Notes under the pieces: generated by a model
What the model was told of the DNA's origin: nothing
The model's input: only the letters and a program-made list of their open reading frames with translations
Databases searched by the model: none
Made by a program: the position numbers and the translations under genes
Origin: Actinomycetota bacterium
GTDB taxonomy: Bacteria > Actinomycetota > Actinomycetes > Mycobacteriales > Micromonosporaceae
DNA length: 64,000 nt
Direction: 5' to 3'
Assembly: GCA_005885555.1 (NCBI GenBank)
Contig: VAWN01000026.1
Coordinates: forward strand, 1-64,000
Part shown: piece after piece, positions 1 through 34,782 of the stretch
Layout: each line of letters starts with the position of its first letter
How positions within the stretch are numbered: the stretch's first letter is position 1

Positions 1-223
1 GCGGTGTGGTACGCGACGAGCTGACCTTGTTCTGACCGGCGTCGAACTCGCCGTCCTTGGTCGCGGCGATGAACCGGCGCCACTCGTCGGGCGGGAAGGT
101 GAGGACGGGACCGGCCTGGTTCTTGCTGTCCCGGACCGCGACGCTGTCGCCCTGGTCGCGCACTTCGACGCAAGCGCCGTTGCTTCCCGAGCGGCTGGAC
201 CTCCGCCAGAAATTAGCTTCCAC
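1..223 (-). CDS. DUF397 domain protein, 3' end beyond the window
   Basis: The minus strand from GTG at 221-223 reads through the left window edge without a stop and begins VEANFWRRSSRSGSNGACVE, followed by VRDSKN and FPPDEWRRFIA. This is the DUF397 signature (W..SS.S...ACVEV, VRDSK, F....W..F). A GGGAGAG ribosome site lies about 6 nt before the GTG. DUF397 proteins are small (about 60-80 residues) and in actinomycetes are usually encoded beside an XRE/DUF5753 regulator, as in the WhiJ-type developmental pairs. That is the case here: the reading frame of the regulator next door ends at 213-215, inside this gene's start region, which implies translational coupling. The biochemical role is unknown; a partner or antagonist of the regulator is an inference. 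Confidence 0.85.
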   Translation of the reverse strand, partial: MEANFWRRSSRSGSNGACVEVRDQGDSVAVRDSKNQAGPVLTFPPDEWRRFIAATKDGEFDAGQNKVSSSRTTP

Positions 224-377
224 TGGTTCTCTCCCTGACGAACTTGACCGACTCTGCTGGCGACATCGCCAGTGTCTTGAGGTGGTCGTATGCCGACAAT
301 AGGCGACCGATCTCCTTGCTGGACTCCAGGAACAGTTCACCGGCCAGGGTCTCGATGTAACCGAGCGGCGGCTCGTC
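213..377 (-). pseudogene. C-terminal remnant of the XRE/DUF5753 regulator after an in-frame TAG
   Basis: Directly after the TAG at 378-380, the same frame stays open for 54 codons to TAA at 213-215. It reads DEPPLGYIETLAGELFLESS and then KEIGRLLSAYDHL, which is the normal carboxyl end of the DUF5753 family (a P-V/L-x-Y-x-E strand followed by a final helix). The continuous frame and its 11-nt overlap with the DUF397 start show that the two pieces were one gene. Relative to the family, about ten residues (the F.LL.FPDP strand) also seem to be missing at the junction. It is probably untranslated now, unless the TAG is suppressed. Confidence 0.7.
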
Positions 378-1046
378 CTAGCCGCCCCGGTCGGCCAGCG
401 TCGCGCCGGCCGCGAAGCGCAACACCTGGACGGTGACGTTCGGCCGCCTGCTCAGCTCGACGATGTGGGCAAGCTGCGCATGCAGGACGTCCGGGCCGCC
501 GACTTCGACGGCGAGCGCGGCCTCGGACAGGATCGCGTGCAGGCGCAGCGGCTTCGGCTTGCGATCGAGTACCGCCTGGCGGGTCAGCCTGGCCTGGACC
601 CGTTGCTCGATCGCTTCCGTCTCGGTCTCCCGACCCACACCGTTGACCTCCCGGGCGTACGCCTCGGTCTGGAGCAGACCCGGGATCAGGGTGGGCTCGA
701 AGTTTCGCAACTCGACCGCCTCGGCCTCGTAGGCGATGAACGTAGCGTAGCGGCTGGAGAGCGCGTCGAGTCGCTGCCACCAGCCGGATTCGCGCAGATC
801 GCGGGCGAGGGCCAGCAGCGACCGGCCCACCTCGCCATCCAGCGGGATGTCGTAGGTGACCAGCAGTTCCATGACGTCGCCCGGTCGTGCCTTGATGTCT
901 CCGGACTCGATGCGGCTGATCCGCGACGGTGAGCAGCGCAGTTGCTTCGCCACGTCGTCGATTCGCAGGGGCCGTGCCTCGCGCAGCTTGCGCAGTTCCC
1001 GGCCGAGCCGGCGGGAACGGGGCGTGGGTGGCGTGAAGCGGGACAT
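378..1046 (-). CDS. XRE-family HTH regulator with DUF5753 domain, truncated by TAG
   Basis: A predicted DNA-binding regulator of the actinomycete HTH-DUF5753 type (WhiJ-like). Residues about 10-65 form the helix-turn-helix (LGRELRKLREARPLRIDDVA and CSPSRISRIESG). From about residue 100 the DUF5753 start is clear (YEAEAVELRNFEP, IPGLLQTEAYAR). Family members are about 270-290 residues; this product stops at about 222 because of an in-frame TAG at 378-380, with the expected C-terminus following in the same frame. I chose ATG at 1044-1046, as MSRFTPP is the usual type of N-terminus and GAGGGA lies 10 nt upstream; GTG at 1062-1064 is an alternative with its own AAGGTG. It is divergent from the tiny genes at 1172-1556 and coupled to the DUF397 gene. 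It may be inactive or retain DNA binding only. Confidence 0.75.
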   Translation of the reverse strand: MSRFTPPTPRSRRLGRELRKLREARPLRIDDVAKQLRCSPSRISRIESGDIKARPGDVMELLVTYDIPLDGEVGRSLLALARDLRESGWWQRLDALSSRYATFIAYEAEAVELRNFEPTLIPGLLQTEAYAREVNGVGRETETEAIEQRVQARLTRQAVLDRKPKPLRLHAILSEAALAVEVGGPDVLHAQLAHIVELSRRPNVTVQVLRFAAGATLADRGG

Positions 1047-1586: not shown

Positions 1587-2453
1587 ATGAATCGGATCGC
1601 CGCCACTGTCGCCGTTCTGCTGACCGCGCTGGTCGTCGCCGGGTGCAAGGGCAACGGTACCGACCCGGGCGGCGCGCCGAGTCCGACGCGCAAACCGCCG
1701 CCGGCGAACCTGCCGAACTCGATGGTCGCGCTCGGCGACTCGATCACCGCGGGTGTCGGTTCCTGCCTGACCCTGACCTCGTGCCCGCGCAACTCGTGGG
1801 CCACCGGCGACGGCACCCTGGTCAACAGCCACTACAAGCGCATCCTCAAGGACAACCCGGCGATCCGCGGACACGCGACCAACCTCGCGGTACCCGGCGC
1901 GACCGTCGCCGACCTGGCCGGCCAGGCGGCCGCGGCGGTGGCGCAGCGGCCGGACTACGTGACCATCCTCATCGGCGCCAACGACGCCTGCCGGCCGACG
2001 ATCGACCAGATGACCAGCAAGGCGCGGTTCCAGGCGGCGTTCACCGCGGCGCTGACGGCGCTGAAGACCGGGCTGCCCATGGCGCGGGTACTGGTCGTCA
2101 GCATCCCGGACGTCTACCAGGTCTGGTCGGCGGCGCACACCCGGCGCGCGGCGCAGCAGGTGTGGGCGCTGGGCGTCTGCCCGTCGCTGCTGGTGAACCC
2201 GACCTCGACCGCGGCCGCGGATGTCGCCCGCCGGCAGCGGTTCCGCGACCAGATCGACGCTTATGACTCGGTACTGGCGGCGGCCTGCGCCCGGTACGGG
2301 TCGCGGTGCAGGTACGACAACGGGACGGTACACGCGACGCCGTTCGGGATCGCGCAGCTGAGCCTGCTCGACTACTTCCACCCCAACGAGGAGGGGCAGT
2401 CGCAGCTGGCCAACCTCACCTACCCCGGTGGATCAGCTGGATCGCTCTGGTGA
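1587..2453 (+). CDS. SGNH/GDSL-family hydrolase, lipoprotein
   Basis: A predicted surface-anchored esterase or lipase-like hydrolase. The N-terminus is a lipoprotein signal with lipobox VVAGC (Cys20) and a Pro/Gly-rich linker. Block I is ALGDSITAG with nucleophile Ser52. Block III is GANDAC, and block V is DYFHPN with Asp262 and His265 completing the triad. Length (288) fits secreted SGNH enzymes. A TACTGT box at 1574-1579 lies 7 nt before the ATG, which indicates leaderless transcription and supports this start. The 3' end overlaps the convergent aldehyde dehydrogenase gene by 38 bp. The substrate cannot be told. Confidence 0.88.
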   Translation: MNRIAATVAVLLTALVVAGCKGNGTDPGGAPSPTRKPPPANLPNSMVALGDSITAGVGSCLTLTSCPRNSWATGDGTLVNSHYKRILKDNPAIRGHATNLAVPGATVADLAGQAAAAVAQRPDYVTILIGANDACRPTIDQMTSKARFQAAFTAALTALKTGLPMARVLVVSIPDVYQVWSAAHTRRAAQQVWALGVCPSLLVNPTSTAAADVARRQRFRDQIDAYDSVLAAACARYGSRCRYDNGTVHATPFGIAQLSLLDYFHPNEEGQSQLANLTYPGGSAGSLW

Positions 2454-3918
2454 TCAGCCGCACCTGGCGCGGGCTGCGGTCGAAGCTCAGCGAGGGCAGC
2501 GGTGAGGGCAGCCGGCGCTTGGTGATCGCCTTCGGCCGGCTGAACTCGCGCAGCCCGTCGGCGCCGTGGATGCGCCCGAACCCGGAGTCACCCACGCCGC
2601 CGAAGGGCAGCGAGGGCTGGCCGGCGAACGAGATCGCCGAGTTGACCGCGGTCATGCCGGTGCGCAGCTGCCGGGCGAGCGCGACGCCGCGGGTACGGGA
2701 GAAGACCGCGCCGCCCAGGCCGTAGCGGCTGGCGTTGGCCAGGCGTACCCCTTCCTCCGCATCCCGTACCCGGGCCACCGTCAGGGTCGGCCCGAACGTC
2801 TCCTCCTGTACCGCCGCCGCGTCCTCCGGCACGTCGACCAGGATCGTCGGATGCGCGTACGGCGCCGCCACCGCGTCCGGGCCGCCCAGTACCGCCCGGC
2901 CGCCCCGGGTCAGCGCGTCGTCGATGTGCCGGCGGATCGCGTCCAGCTGGGCCGGCATGGTGATCGGCCCGATGTCGGCCTCGTCACCGTCGCCGACGCG
3001 CAGGCGGCCGGCGCGCTCCACCAGCCGGGCGAGGAACGCGTCGTAGACCTTGTCGGCGACGTAGACGCGTTCGATGCCGACGCAGGTCTGTCCGGCGTTG
3101 GTGAGGCCGCCCCAGGTCGCCGCCGCGGCGGCCGCGTCCGGGTCGGCGTCGGCATCCACGATCATCGCGTCCTTGCCGCCGCATTCCAGCAGCACCGGGG
3201 TCAGCGTCTCGGCGCAGGCCGCCATGATCTTCTTGCCGGTACGGGTGGAGCCGGTGAAGGCCACCTTGTCGACACCGGAGCGGGTCAGGGCGGCGCCCGT
3301 GTCACCGGTGCCGAAGACGACCTGGAAGACGGGCTGTTCGGGTACCGCCTCGGCGAAGCGTGCGGCCAGCCAGTTGCCCACGGCCGGGGTGTACTCGCTG
3401 GGTTTGAACACCACCGCGTTGCCCGCCGCCAGCGCGTACCCGATCGACCCGACCGGGGTGAGCACCGGATAGTTCCACGGCCCGATCACCCCGACGACGC
3501 CGTAGGGCAGGTATTCCAGGCGCGAGGAGTACTCGATCTGCAGCAGCGAGCTGGGTACCCGCCGGGAGTGCAGCACCCGCCGCGCGTTGCGGGCGGCCCA
3601 CGCGATGTGGTCGATCCCGCCGCCGGACTCGACGATGGCTTCGGCGACCGGCTTGCCGGTCTCCCGGTGTACCAGTTCGGCCAGCTCCGGCAGTCGCCGC
3701 GCGATGTCGGCCCGCCAGCGCAGCAGCCGGTGGCGGCGCTGGGCGAAACCGAGGCCGGCCCACCAGGTGGCCGCCGCGCGGGCACGGTCGACCGCCGCGG
3801 CCACCTCGGCCGGCCCGGCGACCGGGAACCGGCCGACCTCCGCACCGCTGACCGGGTTGGTCGAGACGAGTTGGCCGTCCTCGATGACCGGGACGCCAGG
3901 GGTACGGGTGGCCGTCAT
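2416..3918 (-). CDS. NAD(P)-dependent aldehyde dehydrogenase family protein
   Basis: Oxidises an aldehyde to the acid with NAD(P)+. The 500-residue protein has the complete ALDH core: GPWNYP with Asn149, Lys172 in FKPSEYTP, the FTGSTRTGK cofactor loop, general base Glu245 in ECGGK (a variant of ELGGK), and catalytic Cys279 in NAGQTC. The GPWNYP motif and extended C-terminal helix resemble class-3/coniferyl-type and succinate-semialdehyde enzymes, but the substrate is open. TAGACT (plus-strand 3925-3930) sits 6 nt upstream of the ATG, so the gene is probably leaderless. A TACT-N4-GGTA site just behind that box is shared with ccr and etfB. Confidence 0.9.
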   Translation of the reverse strand: MTATRTPGVPVIEDGQLVSTNPVSGAEVGRFPVAGPAEVAAAVDRARAAATWWAGLGFAQRRHRLLRWRADIARRLPELAELVHRETGKPVAEAIVESGGGIDHIAWAARNARRVLHSRRVPSSLLQIEYSSRLEYLPYGVVGVIGPWNYPVLTPVGSIGYALAAGNAVVFKPSEYTPAVGNWLAARFAEAVPEQPVFQVVFGTGDTGAALTRSGVDKVAFTGSTRTGKKIMAACAETLTPVLLECGGKDAMIVDADADPDAAAAAATWGGLTNAGQTCVGIERVYVADKVYDAFLARLVERAGRLRVGDGDEADIGPITMPAQLDAIRRHIDDALTRGGRAVLGGPDAVAAPYAHPTILVDVPEDAAAVQEETFGPTLTVARVRDAEEGVRLANASRYGLGGAVFSRTRGVALARQLRTGMTAVNSAISFAGQPSLPFGGVGDSGFGRIHGADGLREFSRPKAITKRRLPSPLPSLSFDRSPRQVRLITRAIQLIHRGR

Positions 3919-3941
3919 GCCGAGAGTCTAAATCCGAAACC

Positions 3942-4046: not shown

Positions 4047-5822
4047 GTGGCCCGGGAGTTCAGCAGCGTCGGCGTGATCGGGCTGGGCACCATGGGTGCC
4101 GGGATCGTCGAGGTGTTCGCGCGCAGCGGCCTGAACGTGGTGGCCGTCGAGGTCGACGACGTCGCGCTGGAGCGCGGCCGGGCCACGCTCACCGGCTCGA
4201 CCGACCGGGCGCTGGCCCGGGGGAAGCTCACCGAGGCCGAGCGGGACGAACTGCTCGGCCGGATCCGGTTCGTCGTCGGGCTCGCCGAGCTGGCCGACGT
4301 CGACCTGGTCGTCGAGGCGGTACCCGAACATCTCGACCTCAAGCGCGCGATCTTCGCGGAGCTGGACCGCGTGTGCCGGCCGGAGACGATCCTCGCGACC
4401 AACACCAGCTCGCTGTCGGTCACCGAGATCTCGGTCGCCACGCACCGGCCCAACCAGGTCGTCGGCATGCACTTCTTCAACCCTGCACCGATCATGAAGC
4501 TGGTCGAGATCGTCCGGACCGTGGTCACCGACGAGTCGGTGGTGGCCGACGTCGAGGCGCTGTGCACCCGGCTGGGCAAGGTCGACGTGACGATCGGCGA
4601 CCGGGCCGGGTTCATCGCCAACGCGCTGCTGTTCGGGTACCTCAACCACGCGGTCGCGTTGTACGAGGCGCGCTACGCCACCCGGGAGGACATCGACGCG
4701 GCGATGCGGCTGGGTTGCGGGCTGCCGATGGGACCGCTCGCGCTGATGGACCTCATCGGGCTGGACACCGCATACGAGATCCTCGACACCATGTACCGGC
4801 GCGGCGGGCGGGACCGCCGGCACGCACCGGTACCGCTGATCAAGCAGATGGTCACCGCCGGCCTGCTCGGCCGCAAGTCCGGCCGGGGCTTCTACACCTA
4901 CGAGAAGCCGGGCTCGCCGAAGGTCGTCGACGACGCGCAGACGCCGGCGGCGGTACCCCACGGCAACGGGGCCAGCATCCGCACCGTCGGCGTCGTCGGG
5001 TCGGGGACGATGGCGGCCGGGATCGTCGAGGTGTTCGCGCGGGCCGGGTACGACGTGGTGGCGGTCGCCCGGGCGGCGGACAAGTCGGCGCGGCTGCGGG
5101 AGCGGGTACAGGCGTCGCTGACCAAGGGCGTCGTGCGCGGCAAGCTGTCCGAGGAGGACCGGGACGCGGCGCTGGCCCGGGTCACCTGGACGGTCGCGCT
5201 GGAACACCTGGCCGACGTGGACCTCGTGGTCGAGGCGGTGGTCGAGGAGCTGAGCGTCAAGAAGGCGCTGTTCGCCTCGCTCGACGAGATCTGCAAGCCG
5301 GGGGTACTGCTGGCGACCACCACCTCGTCGCTGCCGGTCATCGAGTGCGCGATGGCCACCGAGCGGCCGGGTGACGTGGTGGGGCTGCACTTCTTCAACC
5401 CGGCGCCGGTCATGGGGCTGGTCGAGGTGGTCCGCACGATCCGGTCCGCGCCCGAGGCGGTGGCCACCGCGCAGGCGGTCTGCGCCGCGGTAGGCAAGCG
5501 GGCGGTGGTCTGCGCCGACCGGTCCGGGTTCGTGGTCAACGCGCTGCTCTTCCCGTACCTCAACGACGCGGTCAAGATGCTCGAAGCCAGCTATGCCAGC
5601 GCCGACGACATCGACTACGCGATGGAACTGGGCTGCGCATACCCGATGGGCCCGTTCAAGCTGCTCGATGTCGTCGGGCTGGACGTCGCCCTGGCCATCC
5701 AGCAGGAGCTGTACCTGGAACTGCGCGAACCCGGCTTCGCCCCCGCTCCGCTGCTGGAGCACCTGGTCACCGCCGGGTACCTCGGCCGCAAGGTCGGCCG
5801 CGGCTTCCGCGACTACCGTTGA
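4047..5822 (+). CDS. Tandem-fused 3-hydroxyacyl-CoA dehydrogenase
   Basis: Oxidises 3-hydroxyacyl-CoA with NAD+ (beta-oxidation or 3-hydroxybutyryl-CoA metabolism). The 591-residue protein is two complete 3HCDH units in series. Unit 1 (about 5-295) has GLGTMG, VEAVPE, TNTSSL and GMHFFNPAP. Unit 2 (about 312-590) has GSGTMA, VEAVVE, TTTSSL and GLHFFNPAP. The second unit has lost the third Gly of the NAD motif and the Asn before TSS, so it may be weak or structural. I chose GTG at 4047, behind GGGAGGG, giving MAREFSSVGVIG; ATG at 4026 lacks a ribosome site. The next gene starts 4 nt after the stop. Two-unit proteins of this size occur in actinobacteria. Confidence 0.88.
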   Translation: MAREFSSVGVIGLGTMGAGIVEVFARSGLNVVAVEVDDVALERGRATLTGSTDRALARGKLTEAERDELLGRIRFVVGLAELADVDLVVEAVPEHLDLKRAIFAELDRVCRPETILATNTSSLSVTEISVATHRPNQVVGMHFFNPAPIMKLVEIVRTVVTDESVVADVEALCTRLGKVDVTIGDRAGFIANALLFGYLNHAVALYEARYATREDIDAAMRLGCGLPMGPLALMDLIGLDTAYEILDTMYRRGGRDRRHAPVPLIKQMVTAGLLGRKSGRGFYTYEKPGSPKVVDDAQTPAAVPHGNGASIRTVGVVGSGTMAAGIVEVFARAGYDVVAVARAADKSARLRERVQASLTKGVVRGKLSEEDRDAALARVTWTVALEHLADVDLVVEAVVEELSVKKALFASLDEICKPGVLLATTTSSLPVIECAMATERPGDVVGLHFFNPAPVMGLVEVVRTIRSAPEAVATAQAVCAAVGKRAVVCADRSGFVVNALLFPYLNDAVKMLEASYASADDIDYAMELGCAYPMGPFKLLDVVGLDVALAIQQELYLELREPGFAPAPLLEHLVTAGYLGRKVGRGFRDYR

Positions 5823-10912: not shown

Positions 10913-11368
10913 TCACCTTGGCGGTTCCACCAGCTCCACGAGCACCCCGCCGGCATCCTTGGGGTGGACGAAGTTGACGCGCGAGCCACCGGTACCCCTT
11001 CTCGGGGTTTGGTAGAGCAACCGGACGCCGCGCTCGCGCAGGGCCGCGGAGGTGGCCTCGACGTCGGCCACGGTGTAGGCCAGCTGCTGGACGCCCGGTC
11101 CGCTGCGGTCCAGGAACTTCGCGATCGTCGAGTCCGGCCGCAGCGGCGCGAGCAGCTGGATCCGGTCGGCGCCCGGCCCGACCGCGAGCATCGCCTCGCA
11201 GACCCCCTGCTCCTCGTTCTCCTCCCGGTGCACGCAGGTCATGCCGAAGACGCGCGCGTAGAATCCGATCGCCGCATCAAGGTCGGCGACCGCGATCCCG
11301 ACGTGGTCGATGCGCAGGATCCCGACCGATGTGATGGCCGCCGCATCGGGGGCCGGTGTAGAAACCAT
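10913..11368 (-). CDS. mce: Methylmalonyl-CoA epimerase
   Basis: Interconverts (2R)- and (2S)-methylmalonyl-CoA, and possibly ethylmalonyl-CoA made by the neighbouring Ccr. The 151-residue protein is a glyoxalase/VOC-fold enzyme: [19 protein letters not shown] at the start, metal ligands in IDHVGIA, QQLAYTV and VLVELVEP, and [14 protein letters not shown] at the end. I chose ATG at 11366-11368; the longer frame upstream would run through the divergent thiolase promoter. It sits between ccr and the thiolase in an acyl-CoA gene group. An 18-bp inverted repeat just upstream may control both this gene and the thiolase. Confidence 0.92.
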
Positions 11369-11380
11369 GGCGATAGTGTT

Positions 11381-11398
11381 ACCGAACGACCGTTCAGT
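11381..11398. promoter_or_regulatory. 18-bp inverted repeat between the epimerase and thiolase genes
   Basis: ACCGAACG-AC-CGTTCAGT has 8-bp arms with one mismatch. It fills the middle of the 52-bp divergent space, where it would cover both promoters. This form is typical of TetR-family operators that control acyl-CoA genes. It is distinct from the TACT-N4-GGTA site. Confidence 0.5.
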
Positions 11399-11420
11399 GC
11401 CTATGTCGGGGAGTTCACAA

Positions 11421-12605
11421 ATGACTTCGGTGATCGTCGGCGGCGCGCGCACCCCGATGGGGCGGCTGCTGGGCAACCTCAAGGGCTTCCCGGCCACCGC
11501 GCTCGGTGCGGCGGCGATCCGGGCCGCGCTCGAACGCTCGGGGGTGTCCCCCGATCAGGTGCAGTACGTGATCATGGGGCAGGTGCTCCAGGCGGGCGCC
11601 GGGCAGATGTCCGCGCGGCAGGCCGCGGTCGGTGCCGACATTCCGATGACGGTACCGTCGCTGAGCGTCAACAAGGTCTGCCTGTCCGGCATCACCGCGA
11701 TCGCGCTGGCCGACCAGCTGATCCGGGCCGGCGAGTTCGACATCGTCGTCGCCGGTGGCATGGAGTCGATGACCAAGGCGCCGCACCTGCTCGTCGGGCA
11801 GCGCGAAGGGTACAAGTACGGCGAGGTCACGCTGCTGGACCACATGGCCTTCGACGGGCTGACCGACGCCTACGACGGGGTGTCGATGGGTGAGTCGACC
11901 GACCGGCACAGCAAGCGGTACGGGATCAGCCGCGCGGAGCAGGACGCCTTCGGCGCCGCCTCGCACCAGCGGGCCGCGACCGCGCAGAAGAACGGCGTGT
12001 TCGCCGAGGAGATCACTGCCTTGTAGGTACCGCAGAAGCGCGGCGAGCCTCTCGTGCTCAGCGAGGACGAGGGGATCCGCCCGGACACCACGCAGGAGAC
12101 GCTGGCCAAGCTGCGGCCGGCGTTCGGCGCCGAGGGCACGATCACCGCCGGTACCTCCTCGCCGATCTCCGACGGCGCGGCCGCGGTCGTGGTGATGAGC
12201 AAGACCCGCGCGCAACAGCTCGGGCTGACCTGGATCGCCGAGATCGGCTCGCACGGTACCGTCGCCGGCCCGGACAACTCCCTGCACAGCCAGCCGGCCC
12301 GGGCGATCCGGCACGCGCTGGACAAGGCCGGCCTGTCCGTCGACGACCTCGACCTCATCGAGATCAACGAGGCGTTCGCGGCGGTTGGTATCCAGTCGAC
12401 GAGAGAGCTCGGTGTGGGTCCCGATATCGTCAACGTGAACGGCGGCGCCATCGCCCTGGGTCACCCGATCGGCATGTCCGGCGCCCGCCTGGTACTCACC
12501 CTCGCGCTCGAACTCAAGCGGCGTGGTGGTGGCCTGGGCGCGGCGGCACTGTGCGGCGGGGGCGGCCAGGGCGACGCGCTGCTGATCCAGGTACCGGGAG
12601 ACTGA
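11421..12605 (+). pseudogene. Acetyl-CoA C-acetyltransferase (thiolase) split by an in-frame TAG
   Basis: Full-length thiolase of 394 residues in one frame, interrupted by TAG at 12024-12026. Piece 1 (11421-12026) starts [15 protein letters not shown] and holds the acyl-accepting Cys ([11 protein letters not shown]). Piece 2 resumes as VPQKRG and [11 protein letters not shown], with NEAFAA, the active-site His (GHPIGMSGA) and second Cys (LCGGGGQGD). The local sequence is EEITAL-stop-VPQ where family members usually have E before VPQ, so one GAG-to-TAG change explains it. Neither half has all catalytic residues; GTG at 12054 could restart the second half. It would normally condense or cleave acetoacetyl-CoA. 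Either a recent pseudogene, a sequencing error, or a suppressed stop. Confidence 0.8.
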
Positions 12606-18726: not shown

Positions 18727-19857
18727 ATGCGCCGGATCGCCGTTCTCGACGCGCCGAGCAACCTGGGGTTGCGGCCGCCGACCGCGACCTCGGTACCGGG
18801 CTGCGCCAAGGCCCCCGGCGCGCTGCGCGACCAGGGTCTGCTGGCCCGGCTGGCGGCCCGGGACGCGGGCTGCCTGACCCCGCCGCGCTTCGACCCCGGC
18901 GACTGGCGGCCCGGCGACGGTGTCTGCCACGCCGGGGCCATCGGGTGGTACTCGCGGCGCCTGGCCGACCGGGTCGGGGCGATCGTCGATGGCGGCGAGT
19001 TCCCGCTGGTGCTCGGCGGCGACTGCTCGATCCTGCTGGGCACCGCGCTCGCGCTGGCCCGGTTGCGCAGCCGCGACAGCCTGCCGTACGGCCTGGTGTA
19101 CCTCGACGGCCACTCCGACTTCCGGCACCCGGGCAACGCCTCCTACGTCGGGGCGGCGGCCGGGGAGGATCTCGCCCTGGCCACCGGTCGCGGCCAGCCG
19201 GACCTGACCGACCTGGAGGGCCTGCGGCCGTACCTGCGTGACGAGCACGTCGTGCTGCTCGGCATCCGGCCGCAGGACGAGTACCGGCTGGACCTGCAGG
19301 CGGCCGGCATCGCCTACCGTGCGGTGCCCCAACTACGCGCCGACGGCGCCGGCCGGACCGCCCAGTGGGCGCGCGAACAGCTCGCCGACTGCCTGGGGTA
19401 CTGGGTGCACGTCGACGTCGACGTCCTCGATCCGGCGGTGATGCCTGCCGTGGACGCGCCCGACGACGGCGGCATCGCCTACGCCGAGCTGGAACTGCTC
19501 ATCGCCGGCCTGGTCGCCACGCCGGACTGCCTCGGCATGCAGGTCACCGTCTTCGACCCGGACTACGACCCGGACGGTGCGTACGCGCGGGAACTGGTCG
19601 GCTCGCTGGTCACCGGCCTCGCGCCGCTGCGGCCCGCGGAGCCGGCGCCGCAGGCCGAGGCGGCGCCGGACGCCGCTCCCGCGGCGCCGGCCGCCCCGGG
19701 CGGCGCGCCGGAAGCCAGGCCGGCCGCGGTCGCGCCGGGCCCGGCGCTGGTGATGCCCGGGCCGCGGGACGAGGCCGCCGACGCTGTCGCGGCTCCGCGG
19801 GCGGTCCGCGCACCCCGCCGCTCGTCCCGGCCGCAGCGCGGCGCCCGCGGGGCGTGA
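18727..19857 (+). CDS. Arginase/agmatinase-family protein with Ala/Pro-rich tail
   Basis: A ureohydrolase-fold enzyme. Metal-binding motifs are GGDCS, DGHSDF and HVDVDVLDP in the order expected for the Mn-binuclear site; the usual GGDHS His is Cys here. The catalytic part ends near residue 300. It is followed by an unusual 75-residue Ala/Pro-rich, finally Arg-rich extension (QAEAAPDAAPAAPAAP, APRRSSRPQRG) that may be disordered. The ATG is 5 nt after the thioredoxin stop, and the stop overlaps the next gene (GTGA), so this is an operon. The substrate (arginine, agmatine, formiminoglutamate or other) is unclear. Confidence 0.82.
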   Translation: MRRIAVLDAPSNLGLRPPTATSVPGCAKAPGALRDQGLLARLAARDAGCLTPPRFDPGDWRPGDGVCHAGAIGWYSRRLADRVGAIVDGGEFPLVLGGDCSILLGTALALARLRSRDSLPYGLVYLDGHSDFRHPGNASYVGAAAGEDLALATGRGQPDLTDLEGLRPYLRDEHVVLLGIRPQDEYRLDLQAAGIAYRAVPQLRADGAGRTAQWAREQLADCLGYWVHVDVDVLDPAVMPAVDAPDDGGIAYAELELLIAGLVATPDCLGMQVTVFDPDYDPDGAYARELVGSLVTGLAPLRPAEPAPQAEAAPDAAPAAPAAPGGAPEARPAAVAPGPALVMPGPRDEAADAVAAPRAVRAPRRSSRPQRGARGA

Positions 19858-20660: not shown

Positions 20661-22331
20661 ATGGGAGAGGTCGCAGGCGTCGCCGAGACGCTGTCGGAGT
20701 TCGTGGCCGCCGCGCTGGCGCGGGTACTGCCGGCGGGGTCGGCCGGTGCCGATCCGCTCGTGCGCCGCTCCGACCGGGCCGACTACCAGTCCACGGTGGC
20801 GTTGGCCGTGGCGCGGGTGGCCGGTACCTCCCCGGTGGCGCTGGCCGGCGCGCTCGCCCGCGAGGTACCCGGTGCGGTGGTCTCCGGCCCGGGTTTCCTC
20901 AACCTCACCGCGCCGGACGGGCTGATCTGGAGCCGGATCGCCTTACGGACGGCCGATTCCCGGCTCGGTGTGGGTACCCCGCTGGCGGGCGGCCGGACCG
21001 TCATCGACTACTCCGCACCCAACGCGGCCAAGGAGATGCACGTGGGGCATCTACGCTCCACGGTCATCGGCGACGCGCTGGCCCGGGTACTGGCACACCT
21101 CGGTGCCGATGTCGTCCGGCAGAATCACCTCGGTGACTGGGGTACCCAGTTCGGCATGCTCATCCAGTACCGGATGGAGCATCCGCAGACCCCGGACGCC
21201 GAGTTGTACCCGTTGGCACGCAAGGCATTCGACTCCGATGGTGACTTCGCCGGGCGGGCCCGGGAGCGGGTCGTCGCGTTGCAGTCCGGCGATGAACCGA
21301 CCCGGGCGGTGTGGCGGGACCTGGTCGCCTGGTCGGAACACTCCTTCCAGGTGTTGTATGAGCGGTTGGGTGTGCTGCTGGTGCCGTCGGACGACGCGCC
21401 GGAGTCGATGTACAACCCGCAGCTGGAGGGTGTTGTATCCGAGCTCGCCGAGCGGGGCTTCGCGGTGGAGAGTCAGGGTGCCTGGTGCGTGTTCCTGCCG
21501 GGCCGCGACGCGCCGCTGATCGTCCGCAAGAAGGACGGCGGATTCGGTTACGCCGCAACGGATCTGGCCGCCCTGCGGTACCGTGTCCGCGACCTCGGTG
21601 CCGACCGGATCCTGTACGTGATCGATCCGCGGCAGGCGTTGCATCTGTCGATGGTGTTCGACACCGCACGGCTGGCCGGCTGGCTGCCCGACGGAGTCGA
21701 CGTGGTGCATGTTGCCTTCGGCACGGTACTGGGACCGGACGGCCGGCCGTTCAAGTCCCGGGCCGGTGACACGGTGCCGCTGCGGGAACTGCTCGACGCG
21801 GCCGTCGACCGGGCGCGCACAGTCATCACCGACCTGGATGACAGCCTGGTGCAGGCGGTGGCGATCGGCGCGGTGAAGTATGCCGACCTGTCCTCGTCAC
21901 GCACCAAGGACTACGCCTTCGATCTGGACCGGATGATGTCTTTCACCGGTAACACGTCGGTGTACCTGCAGTATGCACATGCCCGGGTGCGCTCGATCCA
22001 AGCCCGGTTGGACGGGGAGCACCGGGTGGACGGGGAGCACCGGGTCGATGCCGCGCTGGACCTGCACCCGGCCGAGCGCGAGCTGGCCCTGCGGCTGGAC
22101 GGGTTCGGTGCCACCCTGCAGGAGGTGGCGCAGACGCTGGAACCGCACCGGCTGTGCGGGTACCTCTTCGAGCTGGCCCAGGCGTTCAGCCGCTTCTTCG
22201 AACAGTGCCCGGTGCTGCGCGCGGACACCGCGCAGCGGCAGGCCAACCGGGTCGCGCTCGTCCGGCTCACCGGCGACACGCTCGCCCAGGGGCTGAACCT
22301 ACTCGGGATCGCCGCGCCCTTCCCCATGTGA
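20661..22331 (+). CDS. argS: Arginyl-tRNA synthetase
   Basis: Charges tRNA-Arg. The 556-residue class I synthetase has the N-terminal additional domain, the HIGH-type motif MHVGHLRSTVIG, NHLGDWGTQFGMLI, and GTVLGPDGRPFKSRAGDTV at the place of KMSKS, which many ArgRS lack. It also has the helical anticodon-binding domain ending GLNLLGIA. An 18-bp duplication (22011-22046) adds DGEHRV just before that domain. Codon usage in 21050-21800 is slightly more AT-tolerant (GTTG, TTGTAT) than its neighbours. Whether this is the only ArgRS of the genome cannot be known. Confidence 0.93.
   Translation: MGEVAGVAETLSEFVAAALARVLPAGSAGADPLVRRSDRADYQSTVALAVARVAGTSPVALAGALAREVPGAVVSGPGFLNLTAPDGLIWSRIALRTADSRLGVGTPLAGGRTVIDYSAPNAAKEMHVGHLRSTVIGDALARVLAHLGADVVRQNHLGDWGTQFGMLIQYRMEHPQTPDAELYPLARKAFDSDGDFAGRARERVVALQSGDEPTRAVWRDLVAWSEHSFQVLYERLGVLLVPSDDAPESMYNPQLEGVVSELAERGFAVESQGAWCVFLPGRDAPLIVRKKDGGFGYAATDLAALRYRVRDLGADRILYVIDPRQALHLSMVFDTARLAGWLPDGVDVVHVAFGTVLGPDGRPFKSRAGDTVPLRELLDAAVDRARTVITDLDDSLVQAVAIGAVKYADLSSSRTKDYAFDLDRMMSFTGNTSVYLQYAHARVRSIQARLDGEHRVDGEHRVDAALDLHPAERELALRLDGFGATLQEVAQTLEPHRLCGYLFELAQAFSRFFEQCPVLRADTAQRQANRVALVRLTGDTLAQGLNLLGIAAPFPM
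22011..22046. repeat. 18-bp tandem duplication inside argS
   Basis: Two adjacent copies of an 18-bp unit (22011-22028 and 22029-22046) encode DGEHRV-DGEHRV. They are in frame, in the linker before the anticodon-binding domain, and differ only in the last base. Confidence 0.85.
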
Positions 22332-33841: not shown

Positions 33842-34782
33842 GGGTCGTCGTCGTCGGTAGCGCCAACATGGACCTGGTCGCCACCGCGCCGAGCCTGCCC
33901 CGACCGGGGGAGACCGTGCTGGGCAACGACTTCGTGCAGGTACCCGGTGGCAAGGGGGCGAACCAGGCGATCGCGGCGGCCCGCGCCGGTGCGTCGGTCG
34001 CGTTCGTCGGGGCGATCGGTTCCGACGCGTTCGGGGTCAACCTGCGCGCCCGGCTGGTCGCCTCGGCGGTCGACACGTCGCTGCTCCGGGTGGTGTACGG
34101 CGCCTCGGGCGTGGCGCTGATCCTCGTCGACGGTAGCGGCGAGAACATGATCGTCGTGGCGCCCGGCGCGAACGCGGCGCTGACCTCGCTGACCGGGCCG
34201 GAGCTCGCCGCCGTCGCCGAGGCGGACGTGCTGCTGCTGCAGTTGGAGGTACCGGTGGAGACCGTCGCGGCGGCCGCGACGGTGGCGCGGGACGCCGGTA
34301 CCCGGGTGGTGCTGAACGCCGCCCCGGCCCGGCCGCTGCCCGCGGACCTGGCCGAGTGCGTCGACCTGCTGGTGGTCAACCAGGTGGAGGCGGTCGCCCT
34401 GGCGCCGCTGGCGCTGGTCGGCGTGGACGCGGTACCGGATGCCGCCGAGGCCGATCCGTGGACGCTGGTCGACGCGCTGCTGGAGCGGGTACCGCGGGCG
34501 GTGCTGACGCGCAGCGCGGACGGCGCGTGGTACGGCAGCCGCGACGCCGGCCCGGTGCACATCGCCGCCCCGGTCGTGGCGGCGGTGGACAGCACGGCGG
34601 CCGGCGACGCGTTCACCGCCGCCCTCGCGGTCGGCTGGGGCGAGGGCCGGCCGCTGGTCGACGCCGTGCGCTGGGCGAGCGCGGCCGGCGCGGCGGCCAC
34701 CCGCCGGCTCGGCGCTTCCAGCGCGCTGCCGGACCGGGCCGAGATCGACAACCTCTACCTCGCCACCTACCCGCATGATTGA
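33838..34782 (+). CDS. rbsK: Ribokinase
   Basis: Phosphorylates D-ribose (or a related sugar) at O5 with ATP. The 314-residue PfkB-family protein has the N-terminal VVVVGSANMDLVATAPSLPR, the di-Gly hinge GGKGANQA, and the catalytic signature DSTAAGDAFTAAL with the base Asp. GTG overlaps the preceding ABC gene's stop, so the two are translationally coupled. Substrate specificity within PfkB sugar kinases is not certain, but the NMD and GGKGANQA motifs are those of ribokinases. Confidence 0.88.
   Translation: MRVVVVGSANMDLVATAPSLPRPGETVLGNDFVQVPGGKGANQAIAAARAGASVAFVGAIGSDAFGVNLRARLVASAVDTSLLRVVYGASGVALILVDGSGENMIVVAPGANAALTSLTGPELAAVAEADVLLLQLEVPVETVAAAATVARDAGTRVVLNAAPARPLPADLAECVDLLVVNQVEAVALAPLALVGVDAVPDAAEADPWTLVDALLERVPRAVLTRSADGAWYGSRDAGPVHIAAPVVAAVDSTAAGDAFTAALAVGWGEGRPLVDAVRWASAAGAAATRRLGASSALPDRAEIDNLYLATYPHD

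Follow-up and report, generated by a model that had tools for sequence, protein, structure and literature searches.

XRE-DUF397 gene pairs are known from several Streptomyces species. In the available text of a survey of S. coelicolor, none of the 14 XRE-DUF397 pairs acts as a type II toxin-antitoxin system on overexpression, and the pairs are presented as pleiotropic regulators (PMC10364602). The available part of the work on Scr1/Scr2 (SCO4441/4442) likewise describes this pair not as a toxin-antitoxin system but as one that regulates antibiotic production and differentiation pleiotropically (PMC6262351). According to the accessible sections of a study of S. venezuelae, the WhiJ paralogue WhiJ9 binds direct repeats that lie next to its gene, in the intergenic region; the same study found no DNA binding by BldB (PMC10294661). 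Such pairs can also differ strongly between close relatives: in the portion available of a comparison of 5 S. pratensis genomes, 19 of the 59 core genes diverging by more than 5% encode a DUF397 protein (bldB) or its XRE partner (hpb), with a mean of 18.8% variable nucleotide sites for hpb and 11.8% for bldB, set against a median SNP density of 0.009 (PMC4239341).

Here we describe a pair of this kind in a draft genome (6.7 Mb in 197 contigs) of an actinomycete from the Micromonosporaceae. The window, that is, the whole 64,000-nt stretch analyzed, begins at position 1 of contig C75, where an XRE/DUF5753 regulator gene with an in-frame TAG is followed by a DUF397 gene. What is new here is an intact alternative tail of the same locus, located on contig C161 of the same genome. 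We consider, with a probability of roughly 0.6, that the window carries a haplotype or copy of an ordinary XRE(DUF5753)-DUF397 pair that broke recently, through a 21-nt deletion that made the TAG. Among the papers covered by a literature search, none treats pseudogene, whiJ and Micromonospora together.

An in-frame TAG in an XRE/DUF5753 regulator gene

The regulator ORF starts with an ATG at position 1046 and runs for 222 codons to the TAG at 380-378, beyond which the same frame stays open from 377 to a TAA at 215-213 and encodes the C-terminus typical of the family (Table 1). The N-terminal part carries an XRE-type helix-turn-helix (HTH_31, 1.2e-13, residues 13-68). The 178-position Pfam profile of DUF5753 is matched in 2 portions, 1-116 before the TAG (9.5e-38) and 131-178 after it (1.4e-7), with no open frame of the window regulator holding the complete domain. 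In the whole-genome search, the domain read through the TAG forms a single match with 1 internal TAG, and this regulator is the only one of the 14 DUF5753 matches of the genome with an internal stop. The original prediction that TAG 378-380 interrupts an XRE/DUF5753 frame, with the C-terminus of the family following it and the closing TAA overlapping the start codon of DUF397, is borne out by the Pfam match to positions 131-178 and by the location of the GTG at 223-221.

A codon-usage scan of the window, requiring 50 coding-like codons on each side of a stop, returned 8 stops, with those at 378-380 and 12024-12026 being among the strongest. The stops at 5820 and 36481 each close a listed ORF and have the next listed ORF in the same frame, the stop at 22329 closes a listed ORF, the one at 34780 precedes a listed ORF, and those at 19333 and 34923 have weak scores.

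The DUF397 gene is located directly downstream of the regulator on the same strand and overlaps the regulator frame by 11 nt, including its TAA. Because position 1 of the window is also position 1 of the contig, DUF397 runs off the contig; in C161, the gene closes with a TAG soon after the point where the window copy is cut off. The GGAG core of the Shine-Dalgarno-like sequence preceding DUF397 is common to M. thermarum (AGGGAG) and the C161 version (AAGGAG). On the opposite strand, the window holds the end of a convergent gene, shared with C161, which we take, from its protein, to be nucS.

Table 1. Features of the regulator locus in the window and their correspondence to contig C161.
Feature	Position in window	Strand	Details
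XRE/DUF5753 regulator, part before the stop	381-1046	-	222 aa; HTH_31 and DUF5753 profile 1-116
In-frame TAG	378-380	-	Chimeric codon relative to C161: T from TTC, AG from AAG
Orphaned DUF5753 C-terminal frame	213-377	-	54 codons; TAA 215-213; profile 131-178
DUF397 gene, open at the contig end	1-223	-	GTG start 223-221; DUF397 4.1e-22
Shine-Dalgarno-like AGGGAG upstream of the DUF397 start	231-236	-	
3' end of the convergent gene, presumably nucS	1-35	+	TGA 33-35; gene continues on C161
Identical to the first 22 nt of C161	380-401	.	Window 401-380
Deletion point	379-380	-	21 nt (C161 positions 23-43) missing between the 2 bases
Divergent block	136-379	.	42 differences in 244 nt relative to C161:44-287; regulator C-terminus and first 29 DUF397 codons
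Identical to C161:288-422	1-135	.	135/135

The segment absent at the junction

The 5 closest orthologues found are 282-286 aa long and 64-77% identical to the regulator (M. thermarum, 77%; Micromonospora sp. U21, 69%; 3 other relatives, 64-66%). Their alignment places the missing segment between GG and P(P/T)LG, where the orthologues have 9 or 10 residues and the window has the TAG and 2 residues; over this stretch, M. thermarum reads GGFAILSFERDEPP and the window reads GG, TAG, DEPP. The shortfall amounts to 7 codons relative to 4 of the 5 orthologues and 6 relative to the fifth (L016), and the absent segment displays the pattern F-x-(I/V/L)-L-x-(F/L) in the orthologues, in agreement with the earlier suggestion that the strand preceding the stop (F.LL.FPDP in relatives) had been lost. 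An AlphaFold2 model of the M. thermarum orthologue, built from 3 rows only, places a strand at residues 223-228, within the missing segment, with a mean pLDDT of 44.5, which is too weak for use.

None of the 5 closest orthologues found has a natural stop at the TAG site, all continuing to their full 282-286 aa. No internal stops were present among the DUF5753 matches listed for this genome and 40 relatives, where good, and hence intact, domains rank first and the gene of the window itself does not appear. The surroundings of the orthologues were compared with the first 20 kb of the window and with C161, using flanks of 4 kb for 2 orthologues and 1.5 kb for 3. None of the 5 loci had nucleotide matches outside the gene pair and a short upstream stretch, and the comparison of the flanks at the protein level yielded weak scattered matches only, among the matches listed. 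Since no flank matches were found, the regulator pair appears to be located elsewhere in these 5 genomes.

An intact tail of the same locus on a second contig

A search of the genome with window positions 1-420 revealed that contig C161 (25,880 nt) starts at this very locus. Compared with the window, C161 has an additional 21 nt, which are in frame and encode the segment missing from the window, followed by an intact tail that is 17% divergent from that of the window. At the junction, the window reads GGCGGCT-AGGACGAG and C161 reads GGCGGCT-TCGCAATT, and the loss of the 21 nt joins the T of a TTC codon to the AG of an AAG codon, giving TAG. The small deletion proposed as the origin of the stop can thus be specified exactly relative to C161, as 21 nt in frame. 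At the level of the assembled sequence, the genome contains 2 versions of the 3' half of the regulator, one intact and one lacking these 21 nt.

The divergent block is bordered by identical sequence on both sides (Table 1). At 17% divergence, the chance of identity is approximately 8e-12 over 135 positions and 0.016 over 22 positions, so that the window and C161 share the same, or recently exchanged, DNA on the right flank and probably also on the left one. Within the block, the DUF5753 tails of the window and C161 differ with a dS of 0.69 and a dN of 0.10, which indicates that both were constrained while they diverged. With M. thermarum as the outgroup, 2 of the 53 residues compared are derived in the window tail and 6 in the C161 tail. 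Given the smaller number of derived residues in the window tail, together with the constraint evident from dS and dN, the break is likely to be recent, with the window tail having worked until recently. For the 29 differing DUF397 codons, dS is 0.27 and dN 0.14, corresponding to a weaker constraint than in the DUF5753 tails.

The same comparison bears on the possibility that no cell carries the TAG and that the assembly connected a common N-terminal part to one of 2 tails, dropping 21 nt where the tails branch off. The window does lie at a contig end, a second contig starts at the same spot, and the deletion point coincides with the start of divergence, with no microhomology found at the junction relative to C161. 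However, the loss is a multiple of 3 and comes with no other damage, and the rest of the tail is normal constrained sequence; from a mis-join, we would more often expect a shifted frame or a stretch of N. We regard an assembly artefact as possible, if on the doubtful side.

Neighborhood of the two contig ends

In G001, a genome of the same genus, the counterparts of the window's SGNH-hydrolase gene and of nucS share a contig, where 4 kb separate them and their order and orientation agree with those predicted from the ends of C75 and C161. For 4 of the 5 relatives compared (G001, G002, G004, and G011), nucleotide searches place matches to both contig ends within a single stretch of 9 kb, and G033 yielded no paired matches to both ends. 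In G004, the nucS match lies approximately 190 nt from the match to the window gene at 2416-3927, which, by eye, we take to encode an aldehyde-dehydrogenase-like protein, and this distance leaves no room for the regulator pair. Based on this synteny in the relatives, the regulator pair appears to be an insertion between conserved genes, with C75 and C161 meeting there; judging by the relatives, the comparison indicates that the 2 contig ends would be neighbors in the genome. The interval between the SGNH-hydrolase gene and nucS of G001 (L065, G001:C46, 2745-6718) holds other reading frames, one of them presumably protease-like, by eye, and none of the 6 regulator matches of G001 is located there. 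The insertion spot between the 2 genes may accept different insertions.

Two copies at one locus would explain the presence of both tails even if the sample is not mixed, and they fit the dS of 0.69. In such an arrangement, which as a sub-case overlaps with the best explanation, an upstream pair (that of the window) would be broken, a downstream pair (that of C161) would be intact, and the second N-terminal half would fall into a gap of the assembly. DUF5753 genes can indeed be found in tandem, as illustrated by 2 entries of the genome G048 that lie on one strand, 336 nt apart. Yet the assembly has no second N-terminal half, the other 12 matches in the genome being at most 46% identical, which speaks against a tandem copy unless that half is in an assembly gap. 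Furthermore, a duplication would need to extend over the end of nucS, which lies within the 135 identical nucleotides. We regard a tandem duplication as unlikely.

Overlaps between contig ends were searched for in the first 400 nt of contigs C1-C60, C75, C161, and C83 and the last 400 nt of C102, C75, and C161. Within this sample, the only overlaps between different contigs were those of C75 with C161 and of C102 with C83, the latter being an exact match of 66 nt. With only 2 pairs, overlaps of contig ends are not the rule in the sample, which favors neither haplotypes nor a tandem copy. The C102/C83 boundary splits another DUF5753 gene of the genome between the end of one contig and the start of the other (L013 and L009); given the 66-nt overlap, this gene is probably intact.

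The second in-frame TAG, in a thiolase gene

Within 12 kb of the regulator, a thiolase gene (11262-12605, plus strand) is split by a TAG at 12024-12026. The match to its N-terminal domain stops at profile position 197 and resumes at 203. In the thiolase orthologues of 6 relatives, the part following the TAG is matched without a stop; in the 2 clean full-length alignments, used here because the other 4 were in a wrong frame and were left out, the TAG site corresponds to V or T (L095 of G004 and L096 of G033), with no residue missing. The sole other match in the genome at an E value of 1e-40 or better is 49% identical. Judging from these alignments, the thiolase TAG looks like a point lesion rather than a deletion.

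The proximity of 2 in-frame TAGs, each with coding-like sequence behind it, raises the question of whether TAG is read as a sense codon, through a suppressor tRNA or programmed readthrough, in both the regulator and the thiolase. Several observations speak against this. Release factor RF1 is intact (C161:22204-23256; TIGR00019, 466 bits, above the cut-off, with no internal stop). Furthermore, TAG closes ordinary genes: among 9 ORFs with a terminal TAG that were compared with NCBIfam, 3 match a model up to at most 5 positions short of its end, namely acetolactate synthase (548/548, over the cut-off), cysteine desulfurase (375/379, under the cut-off), and a dihydroxy-acid dehydratase piece that is cut by the end of the window (611/616, under the cut-off), with the other 6 having no match or a partial one. 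No CUA tRNA was seen among the 37 tRNA places found, a set that is incomplete, lacking some expected anticodons, for example, any tRNA-His. Finally, the 2 TAGs differ in kind, the one in the regulator being a deletion scar and the one in the thiolase having no missing residue, and readthrough would restore none of the 7 codons missing from the regulator. With RF1 intact, TAG ending genes, and the lesions differing, a shared cause through TAG recoding is not supported, and we reject recoding or readthrough as hardly credible. The common explanation that the 2 TAGs had seemed to invite is thus not supported; if they have anything in common, it could be the plain quality of the sequence of this contig or the decay of genes on it.

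Discussion

The reading that we prefer, that of a recently broken haplotype or copy, can be laid out as follows. An ordinary regulator pair would be situated between nucS and the SGNH-hydrolase gene, with 2 versions of its 3' half present in the assembly. In one of these, an in-frame deletion of 21 nt would have removed 7 codons of a conserved segment and created the TAG at the junction. Translation would then end at residue 222, with the loss of the last third of the DUF5753 domain, and DUF397 would probably keep its translation start, having a Shine-Dalgarno-like sequence of its own. The truncated product would be predicted to retain the DNA-binding part and to lose the end of the DUF5753 domain. 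We infer that the deletion is real in cells, that the function has been lost, and that the 2 tails represent allelic forms of a single locus, not copies in tandem.

Several observations weigh against this explanation. The deletion sits exactly where the 2 versions begin to differ, as would also be the case if the assembler had joined sequences wrongly where its graph branches, and C161 holds only 22 nt to the left of that branch. In addition, a dS of 0.69 is high for 2 alleles, the junction lacks microhomology, and the constraint over the 29 DUF397 codons is weaker.

A bolder possibility is that the 2 tails serve as interchangeable cassettes, swapped in growing cells across the boundary between the partner genes, with the intact and truncated regulators coexisting in one culture as an on/off switch. 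If so, the exchanged cassette would comprise the C-terminus of the regulator and the N-terminus of DUF397. No convincing repeats able to serve such a switch were found in positions 1-2600 of the window or in C161:1-2600, and we consider this scenario very improbable. The locus also carries a caution for the interpretation of single contigs: the apparent puzzle of an in-frame stop accompanied by a missing strand looks ordinary in the light of the remaining contigs, since the neighboring contig holds an intact version of the locus.

As in the XRE-DUF397 pairs of Streptomyces (Scr1/Scr2, the 14 S. coelicolor pairs, and the WhiJ/BldB paralogues), the DUF397 gene is located directly downstream of the regulator gene, with the window genes overlapping by 11 nt, and the intact version on C161 would, by analogy, be a regulator of the type described in S. 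coelicolor and S. venezuelae. Unlike those pairs, the window copy lacks 7 codons, and its stop cuts off the final third of the DUF5753 domain. In the available text on the bldB/hpb pairs of S. pratensis (PMC4239341), single loci differ strongly between otherwise very similar genomes, with both partners diverging together. The block described here resembles this pattern, and a mixed sample with such a pattern could give a 17% divergent block between identical flanks. The divergence of the S. pratensis pairs, as far as that text goes, is our ground for favoring haplotypes over tandem copies, a ground rather than a proof. If the 2 versions are true haplotypes, they would add to the examples of rapid change in XRE-DUF397 pairs within a species, with the divergent block covering the adjoining halves of both partner genes. 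By contrast with S. pratensis, where the differences described in the available text are between named strains, the 2 versions are found here in one assembly, and one of them is truncated.
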